Source: Gammaproteobacteria bacterium (GTDB lineage Bacteria; Pseudomonadota; Gammaproteobacteria; Steroidobacterales; Rariloculaceae). Taken from it: a stretch of DNA of 64,000 nucleotides. The DNA lies in NCBI GenBank assembly GCA_022826245.1, contig JAJDVG010000055.1, forward strand, positions 16,882 to 80,881, given 5' to 3'. The notes below the pieces were generated by a model that saw only the letters and a list, made by a program, of their open reading frames with translations, was not told the DNA's origin and did no database searches. Each line of letters opens with the position of its first letter. Position 1 is the stretch's first letter. Position numbers and translations under genes: made by a program. Of this stretch, positions 10,732 through 58,801 are shown piece after piece.

Positions 10732-11003
10732 GCGGGAGGCGCACTGCGGGTCGCTTGAAACGCGCGGTGACTACGTCCGAACAGGGTCGTCGTGGGCGTC
10801 GTCGCGGTGGTGCGGGGAAGCGCACCACGAGCCGCTTGAAACACGCCGTGAATTCATCGTGCAGGCTCAGTGTCAGCGTTGTCGCAGGGATGCGGGGAGG
10901 CGCACTACAGGCCGCTTGAAACACGCCGTAAATCCATCCCTGGAGGCTCCGCGCGCGCATCCCTGCGCGCGAGGGTTTCAAGCGGCCTGTAGTGCACCTC
11001 CCC
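10732..11003. repeat. Palindromic repeat family A, copy 1: two degenerate 80-bp half-units (10732, 10812) followed by a 110-bp nested palindrome (10894-11003)
   Basis: Left arm GGGGAGGCGCACTACAGGCCGCTTGAAAC (10894-10922) and right arm GTTTCAAGCGGCCTGTAGTGCACCTCCCC (10975-11003) are complementary at 28/29 positions; repeat units start at 10732, 10812, 10892. Confidence 0.9.
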
Positions 11004-50940: not shown

Positions 50941-51132
50941 GCCGGGAGGCGGACTACCGGTTGCTTGAGACATCGGTACGTGCGTTCAGGCAGGCTCGGC
51001 GTGCGCGGCGTCGCGATGTTGCGGGGAGGCGTACGACGGGCCGCTTGAAACACGCCGTGAATACATCCATGTAGGCTCCGCGCGCGCATCCCTGCGCGCG
51101 AGGGTTTCAAGCGGCCCGTCGTACACCTCCCC
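50941..51132. repeat. Palindromic repeat family A, copy 2: one degenerate 80-bp half-unit (50941) plus 110-bp nested palindrome (51023-51132)
   Basis: GGGGAGGCGTACGACGGGCCGCTTGAAAC (51023-51051) vs GTTTCAAGCGGCCCGTCGTACACCTCCCC (51104-51132): 28/29 complementary; half-unit spacing 80 bp. Confidence 0.9.
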
Positions 51133-56577: not shown

Positions 56578-56607
56578 TTGACACCCGCTCTCCCATCTCC
56601 CGACAAT
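56578..56607 (+). promoter_or_regulatory. Sigma70-like promoter upstream of cobalamin riboswitch
   Basis: TTGACA (56578-56583), 18-nt spacer, GACAAT (56602-56607). Confidence 0.6.
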
Positions 56608-56611
56608 ACAC

Positions 56612-56780
56612 ACAGATGGTGTCGCCACGAAGGCGGCCATGAGGGAACTCGGTGTAATTCCGAGGCTGTACCCGCAACTGTAAGCCGGGAGCTTGCGGCC
56701 CACAGGCCACTGGAGACTTCTCCGGGAAGGCGGCCAAAAAGCGATGATCGGCGAGCCAGGAGACCTGCCATCGCGTCGTT
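56612..56780 (+). ncRNA. Cobalamin riboswitch
   Basis: Conserved elements: GGTGTCGCC...GGGAACTCGGTGTAATTCCGAGGCTGTACCCGCAACTGTAAGCCGGGAGC...GCCACTGG...GGGAAGG...GAGCCAGGAGACCTGCC, directly upstream of btuB. Confidence 0.95.
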
Positions 56781-56950
56781 CGTTCGCGGGTCGGGAATAG
56801 TGCCGGCGAACGGGAGCGAGCATCGGGCCGCAACCCGGTGTCCCTTCTCCCGGGTAACGACATGCAACAAGGGCCGCGCCCCGCGGCGCCTGTCGTCGCC
56901 GGGGCCGGAGTTGTCGTTCGGCGCGCCCTCCAGGGCGCGGGAGGGGACCG

Positions 56951-58801
56951 ATGCTGCGCTCTCTGTCGACTTTCGGGCTGGCCGTTCCGGCTGCCTTTTT
57001 CACGCTCGCTCAGGCTCAATCGCCGGATAACGGCGAAGACTCGCAAATCGACACCATCGTCGTGACCGGCACGCGGCTCGAACAGACCGCCGCCGAGGCG
57101 GGGTCGACGATCCGGATCATCGACGCCGCGAGAATCGAAACGCTCGGTTTCGATCAGGCGCTCGATGCCATCGCCAACGCGCCTGGAGTGACCATCAACC
57201 AGAACGGCGCCTTCGGCGGCATCGCCACCGTGAGCATTCGCGGCGCCTCCAGCGATCAGACGCTCGTGCTGATCGACGGCGTGTCGGTCAATGACACGAC
57301 ATCGCCCGGCGGCGGCTTCGATTTCTCGCGACTCGACACGGAGAACATCGAGCGGATCGAGATACTTAGCGGACCGCAGTCGACGCTCTGGGGTACGGAT
57401 GCCATCGGCGGTGTCGTCTCCATCGTCACGAAGCGGCCCACGGACGGACTGAGCGGCAGCCTGTTCGGCCAGGCGGGTTCGTTCGGCTCGTTTCGCGGCG
57501 GCGCCTCGGTCAGCCATGCGAGCGAGCGGGGGGACTTCCGGATCGCGGCGACGCGGCTTTCGTCCGACGGGATCTCCAAGGCCGACGAGCGCAACGGCAA
57601 TACGGAAGACGACGGATTCGATTCCCTGTCGCTGGCCGCCCAGGGCGGGTTCAACCTGCCCGGCGGCGCGCGTATCGATGCCAGCGTGCTGCGCAACGAC
57701 GCGAGGACCGAATTCGACAGCTACTCCTTCGGCGCTCAGGGCAGCATCGGCGACGGCGACGAGGTCAGCGAGACGCAGGAACTGTCGGCGAACCTGTCAC
57801 TGACGGCGCCGCTGCTCGATGGCCGGTTCGAGAACTTCCTCATGCTCGGCCGCGCGGAAATCGACCGGAACAACGCCACGAACGGCTCCCCGAGCTTCGA
57901 TGCGCAAGGAGAACGCACGCTGTTCCGATATCAGGGTACGCTCGCCATCGACGCGCGCAACACGCTGGCCGCCGGTGTGGAACGTGAGGAATCGACGGCC
58001 AATCTCGACCGCAGTTCGCTCAGCGGGCTGTTCGCGCTGTACGAATTCCGCCCGCTCGACACGCTCAACCTCACTGCCGGCCTGCGCTCCGACGACCACG
58101 ATCGCTTCGGCTCGGAAACCACCGCCCGCTTTGCCGCCGCCTGGCGGCTGAGCTCCGGCCTGACGCTGCGTGGAAGCTGGGGCGAGGGCTTCAAGGCGCC
58201 GACGATCTTCCAGTCCACCTTCTTCTGCTGCGGCGCGGGCGCGGCGAACGAAGCACTGCGGCCGGAAAGGTCCCAAGGCATCGATGTCGGTCTCGACTGG
58301 CGATCGGCCGATGGACGCGGCCAGGCAGGCATCACGCTCTTCCAGCAGGACACCGAGGACCTGATCGTGTTCTCGTTCGGAGTCGGCGGCTACGAGAACG
58401 TCGCTGAAGTCGACTCCGAGGGCGTCGAAGTCAGCGCCCGGTGGGCCATCACGCCCACGCTCGAATTGTACGCGGACTACGCCTGGATCAGGGCGACGCA
58501 GGGCGACGGCACGCGGCTTCGGTACCTGCCGAGGCACTCCGGCGACCTCGCGCTGAGCTTCGATCCGCCCGGCCCCTTCTCGGGCTCCGTGCTGGTGCGC
58601 TACAACGGCCGGGAAACGGACCGTGCCGGCATCGACGTCGACGACTGGACACGGCTTGATGTCAACGCCCGCTACGCACTGTCCGAACGCTTCGAACTGT
58701 ACGCCCGGCTCGAGAACGTACTCGATACCCACTACCAGCAGGTCCTGGGCTACGGTACGCCGGGCCGATCGGGGTCCGTGGGCGCGCGATGGCGGTACTG
58801 A
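56951..58801 (+). CDS. btuB: TonB-dependent vitamin B12 receptor BtuB-like
   Basis: DTIVVTGTR TonB-box region; plug SIRGASSDQTLVLIDGVSVNDTTSPGGGFDFSRLDTENIERIEILSGPQSTLWG; behind cobalamin riboswitch. Confidence 0.93.
   Translation: MLRSLSTFGLAVPAAFFTLAQAQSPDNGEDSQIDTIVVTGTRLEQTAAEAGSTIRIIDAARIETLGFDQALDAIANAPGVTINQNGAFGGIATVSIRGASSDQTLVLIDGVSVNDTTSPGGGFDFSRLDTENIERIEILSGPQSTLWGTDAIGGVVSIVTKRPTDGLSGSLFGQAGSFGSFRGGASVSHASERGDFRIAATRLSSDGISKADERNGNTEDDGFDSLSLAAQGGFNLPGGARIDASVLRNDARTEFDSYSFGAQGSIGDGDEVSETQELSANLSLTAPLLDGRFENFLMLGRAEIDRNNATNGSPSFDAQGERTLFRYQGTLAIDARNTLAAGVEREESTANLDRSSLSGLFALYEFRPLDTLNLTAGLRSDDHDRFGSETTARFAAAWRLSSGLTLRGSWGEGFKAPTIFQSTFFCCGAGAANEALRPERSQGIDVGLDWRSADGRGQAGITLFQQDTEDLIVFSFGVGGYENVAEVDSEGVEVSARWAITPTLELYADYAWIRATQGDGTRLRYLPRHSGDLALSFDPPGPFSGSVLVRYNGRETDRAGIDVDDWTRLDVNARYALSERFELYARLENVLDTHYQQVLGYGTPGRSGSVGARWRY

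Follow-up and report, generated by a model that had tools for sequence, protein, structure and literature searches.

The window, i.e. the whole stretch of 64,000 nucleotides analysed in the present study, contains two full copies of a 110-bp palindromic element. Decayed left-half units of this element, which were absent from a preliminary description of the same DNA, lie upstream of both copies. The features, with the approaches that defined them, are as follows.

10733-10789, no strand assigned: second, more distant left-half unit upstream of copy A (direct reading and the listing of locus L018)
10813-10868, no strand assigned: left-half unit upstream of copy A, the hairpin of which has lost its GGA (direct reading and similarity search)
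10894-11003, minus strand: full 110-bp element, copy A, both minus-strand loops of which are CAGGGATG (reading, genome search, folding and loop analysis)
50943-50997, no strand assigned: decayed left-half unit upstream of copy B (direct reading; unit type from the locus listing)
51023-51132, minus strand (the probable folding strand): full 110-bp element, copy B, with 29-bp arms enclosing two hairpins (reading, genome search, folding and covariation)
51023-51051, no strand assigned: left arm of copy B, partner of 51104-51132 (reading and covariation)
51062-51073, minus strand: hairpin 1 of copy B, TACATGGATGTA on the minus strand, with the loop CATGGATG matching CANGGANG (loop and spacing analysis)
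51081-51100, minus strand: hairpin 2 of copy B, GCGCGCAGGGATGCGCGC on the minus strand, with the loop CAGGGATG matching CANGGANG (loop and spacing analysis)
51104-51132, no strand assigned: right arm of copy B (reading and covariation)

In addition, a gene for a TonB-dependent receptor (56951-58801) has a cobalamin riboswitch (56600-56786, plus strand) immediately before it.

Direct reading confirmed that copies A and B are each exactly 110 bp, as the preliminary description had reported. The changes noted there at left-arm positions 10, 13 and 16 (C/T, T/G and A/G) are indeed matched in the right arm (G/A, A/C and T/C), hairpin 1 covaries as described (TCCA-TCCC-TGGA versus TACA-TCCA-TGTA), and the outer C-A mismatch common to both copies lies at arm position 8. 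Ten positions differ between the copies: eight belong to the four compensated pairs originally counted, one is a loop base (C/A) and one is an unpaired base (A/G). Compared with shuffled sequence, the folding of the element reached a z of about -11 on the plus strand and about -12 on the minus strand. The covariation was upheld in a larger alignment, in which arm changes might have proved uncorrelated with their partners. Among 54 aligned copies from the host genome (G000) and a congener (G001), with column shuffles and slid registers as controls, 96.7% of the cells were paired, compared with 89.9% in the shuffles (0 of 500 as high), 18 pairs were changed on both sides (12.2 in the shuffles), and 158 cells were double-changed (43 in the shuffles), while all slid registers were at most 50% paired. 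Of the 29 arm pairs, 16 showed such both-sided changes, as did one pair in each of the two parts of hairpin 1. At orthologous positions of the two genomes, some elements differed by several double changes with few that broke a pair, and others were nearly identical. The structural signal at the two 110-bp copies is real and strongly supported.

The element is abundant in the host genome. About 44 copies, either full-length or at contig edges, were obtained in one search and 24 more in a second, giving a total of at least 65 copies in 3.6 Mb, a lower bound since the draft assembly breaks at the repeat (contigs C9, C12, C21, C24, C26, C38, C52, C54 and C56 end in or near it). The length was identical in all 42 complete copies extracted first. 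Left-half units, comprising the arm and hairpin 1 without the right arm, precede many of the copies at a spacing of about 81 bp, and most of those in the host-genome listing retain the GGA loop. At several loci (L024, L004, L007, L023 and L269), up to three or four such units, about 81 bp apart, stand before the full element, and their arm variant is often that of the adjacent full copy. The presence or absence of copies differs between congeners: both window copies are missing from the aligned orthologous regions of G001, where the flanks are too diverged for exact junctions, and a remnant of the element has been kept at another site. Clean empty sites were sought, and the search was defeated by the highly diverged intergenic flanks.

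Only the centre of the element is held in common by the window copies and their distant relatives. This core, which reads ...CANGGANG...GAGCC-UACANGGAYGUA-UU(U/C)ACGGCG on the folding strand of both the window copies and the printed YPAL sequence, is nearly constant across genera. The flanking arms (median 29 bp) are unrelated in sequence between genera, yet self-complementary. Among the matches listed, the core pattern was found in Xanthomonas, Stenotrophomonas, Arenimonas, Marinobacter, Halopseudomonas, Alcanivorax, Shewanella, Sodalis, Methylotuvimicrobium and many uncultured Gammaproteobacteria. Of 291 genomes sampled across the class, 13 contained the core, compared with 0 for a reversed-pattern control. 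Genome G300, taken to be Methylotuvimicrobium buryatense 5G, carried 221 exact cores. None was found in phages, and the only plasmid with a core was from Yersinia similis. As judged from these sequences, the window copies represent a single family within a gammaproteobacterial YPAL superfamily and are a dispersed, non-autonomous palindromic repeat. Several relatives are composite. Other hairpins interrupt the hairpin 2 loop in L100, L156, L167, L170, L197 and several M. buryatense copies. They often contain GCCATGGATGGC together with a stem whose loop is GCAGGAGC, so that their AGGA loops face the other way and a second family of hairpins is nested within the first. In L202 and M. buryatense family I, an additional inverted repeat (TATACCC...AAATTTCGGC) encloses the element from outside, as if a larger miniature transposon held it. 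Insertions between duplicated dyads were observed in L304 (1440-1620) and L098 (AAACCGCCATAAAGGCGGTTT, terminator-like, and GAGATGAGTTCACTCATC).

The closest known system is YPAL, or RU-2, the Yersinia palindromic sequence of about 168 bp, which shares the core and its strand, holds two A(N)GGA hairpins within a long imperfect palindrome, and occurs in many intergenic copies. The window family likewise consists of dispersed intergenic copies within complementary arms. In the printed YPAL/RU-2 sequence (PMC2759123), the strand that contains CAAGGATG and CATGGATG is also the one with the more stable fold (-68.1 versus -59.4 kcal/mol). However, the arm sequences are unrelated, and the window family is 110 bp long with half-unit arrays. 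In the papers examined, YPAL has been reported from Yersinia and Erwinia, with a few copies in E. coli. It is described as mobile, with target duplications of 3-26 bp at dyads, and as expressed together with upstream genes (PMC2229807). Target-site duplications, both of them dyads, flank relatives in the Y. similis plasmid (21 bp) and in Sodalis (18 bp), whereas the window family shows no consistent duplication and the host genome was not above control. Two Rfam families are also similar. The consensus of Ysr224 (RF02770), several copies of which are reported to be transcribed in Y. ruckeri (PMC12112432), includes the core and hairpin 2, and weak matches to it occur at the element in many relatives, but its arms are truncated and its annotation follows the other strand, and the window copies score 20 bits against a gathering cut-off of 70 bits. 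TwoAYGGAY (RF01731), earlier proposed to bind CsrA (PMC4333381), resembles the element in that a long stem bears two A-Y-GGA-Y hairpins. It matched neither the window copies nor the host genome, and only one relative, the AT-rich L182, passed it, on the minus strand (47.4 versus a cut-off of 43 bits). At gathering thresholds, a window-wide Rfam scan matched no family to the element. Lastly, CsrA sponges of the CsrB/RsmZ type share the repeated GGA hairpins, and the half-unit arrays add sites, although these sponges are dedicated sRNA genes, and the element is instead a repeat scattered over the genome, with long double-stranded arms and lacking a visible promoter. The window family is a variant, not described before, of an already known kind of mobile palindrome.

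Which strand folds is revealed by the polarity of the mismatches. Read on the plus strand, the wobble-type mismatches in 110 distinct arms comprise 169 A-C and 40 G-T, and the excess persists when counted by locus (73 versus 14) or by genus-level group (61 versus 12, i.e. 61 of 73 informative groups). A-C cells on the plus strand are G-U pairs on the minus strand, which folds more stably in 86 of 98 cases. The apical base beside each loop varies oppositely (A-U to G-U on the plus strand), and this base is the free N after GGA on the minus strand. Polarity was marked in shared mismatches (A-C to G-T, 20:5) and hardly seen in those private to one copy (16 A-C and 13 G-T, small numbers), a contrast which suggests selection during the spread of lineages rather than on each copy. 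The A-C excess marks the minus strand as the one under selection for folding. Since cruciform extrusion and arm correction treat both strands alike, one-sided mismatches point to a single strand that has to fold, and it is because one strand has to fold that the arms mutate in matched pairs. The preliminary description had offered selection on a folded RNA or a cruciform, or arm-to-arm gene conversion. This interpretation is partly supported: a folded single strand fits best, and neither a cruciform nor conversion alone accounts for the A-C excess. The minus-strand fold, the CsrA-type loops and the identity as a known kind of dispersed repeat go beyond that account. It is quite improbable that arm-to-arm conversion or replication-fork template switching maintains the palindrome with no need for function; the arms are often perfect and change in matched pairs, and such correction is familiar for quasi-palindromes, but the process is strand-neutral and predicts neither the A-C excess nor the conservation of the loop motif. 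Conversion may be a contributor.

The polarity also bears on a GTAG-type REP/BIME mobilised by a RAYT. TGTAG or TGGAG stands ahead of hairpin 2 on the plus strand, and the intergenic, 3'-biased location is that of REPs (PMC3733652). However, the base in question is a covarying stem position rather than a fixed unpaired tag, no Y1 gene is present in the host genome or its congeners, and the polarity indicates the opposite strand, which leaves this explanation with very little probability. A RAYT/REP origin was rejected: the Y1 gene is absent from the host genome and seven other carriers, and none adjoins the cores.

The minus-strand core carries CANGGANG, the CsrA/RsmA consensus, twice, once in each hairpin, and both loops of copies A and B present CANGGANG with A(N)GGA in the hairpin loop. 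The hairpin 2 loop, which lies outside the search pattern and was not used to retrieve loci, is CANGGANG in 74 of 92 loci, and in 86 of 92 when one-base variants are allowed, compared with an average of 1.6 in shuffles and 2 on the plus strand. Loop variation is restricted to the two N positions of CANGGANG, and the GGA-to-GGA spacing is 20±1 nt (19-21) in all 86 loci scored. The CsrA consensus is RUACARGGAUGU, with six-base loops and a dimer that bridges sites 10-63 nt apart (PMC7652899). On the strength of this resemblance, the loops are putative CsrA/RsmA binding sites. The host genome has a csrA gene, which is uninformative since csrA is present in 251 of 291 genomes of the class. An association of Ysr224-like matches with csrA was set aside, the comparison (28 of 30 genomes versus 86% overall) having no power. 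Against CsrA binding, intact elements with GGA loops occur in a genome that is 98% complete and in which csrA was not detected (G245), and the Ysr224 annotation is for the opposite strand, the loops of which carry TCC.

The genomic setting provides evidence of a further kind. Copies are enriched at convergent gene ends and depleted at divergent ones, and both window copies lie between convergent genes, as would suit a bidirectional transcription terminator or an mRNA 3'-end stabiliser selected at such ends. This explanation is unlikely, as the copy at 51023 has neither a T-run following a GC stem nor a terminator-like site, and the core and loop motif are conserved far beyond the requirements of a terminator. 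Relative to flanking genes, no orientation bias was observed (co-directional 24 versus 20 in Methylotuvimicrobium buryatense; 7 versus 9 rows in the host genome), based on our own gene calls, which are noisy at high GC and missed the DksA gene beside the copy at 51023. The lack of bias also counts against CsrA binding, as about half of the copies would have no minus-strand transcription by read-through. It favours the alternative in which the folded minus strand is single-stranded DNA, needed by a transposase or recombinase that recognises hairpins and works in trans to move the element, with the A(N)GGA loops as its recognition sites and CsrA irrelevant. The concentration of polarity in shared, that is propagated, mismatches fits this explanation too, as do the dyad direct repeats around the Yersinia and Sodalis relatives, as published for YPAL (PMC2229807). 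Conversely, 8 of 14 carrier genomes, the host included, have no Y1 (RAYT-type) transposase gene, no core was found near the 12 Y1 loci examined, cores in M. buryatense are only weakly biased in orientation relative to the replichores (about 50:28 by our count), and loop variation closely fits the degenerate CsrA consensus. Movement as single-stranded DNA is therefore possible but rather doubtful. Insertion into lagging-strand DNA in particular was rejected: the first 13 M. buryatense cores listed were on one strand, but 40 chromosome-wide stretches gave only about 50:28.

Herein, we propose, with middling confidence, a mobile repeat of the YPAL type in which the minus strand, once folded and probably as RNA, offers a CsrA dimer two putative sites about 20 nt apart. 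First, the lineages that spread would be those in which the minus strand folds into a long stem with two A(N)GGA hairpins. Second, upon minus-strand transcription, one CsrA/RsmA dimer would clamp both loops. Third, transcribed copies and half-unit arrays, with an extra site about every 81 nt, might act on CsrA locally as sinks, or as docking sites in 3' UTRs. No promoter-like site was found at the copy at 51023, which counts against the proposal. In the literature searched, which did not cover De Gregorio 2006, the original YPAL paper, no earlier description of the strand polarity and CsrA-type loops was found.

The present results unite elements described separately, including YPAL, Ysr224 and unnamed palindromes of Xanthomonas, Stenotrophomonas, Methylotuvimicrobium, Marinobacter and others, in a single superfamily whose core is constant and whose arms covary freely, and give this superfamily a testable partner, CsrA. 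Tentatively, and with more doubt than belief, we suggest that the class-wide family of mobile palindromes, to which YPAL, Ysr224 and numerous unnamed families belong, might constitute a system of dual CsrA sites, dispersed and either selfish or domesticated, which spreads as folded RNA or DNA strands and, at tens to hundreds of copies per genome, buffers CsrA/RsmA. If CsrA binds, the copy number of the repeat would be an unrecognised variable of CsrA/RsmA regulation, and the repeats would be candidates in genera whose CsrA-sequestering RNAs are unknown.
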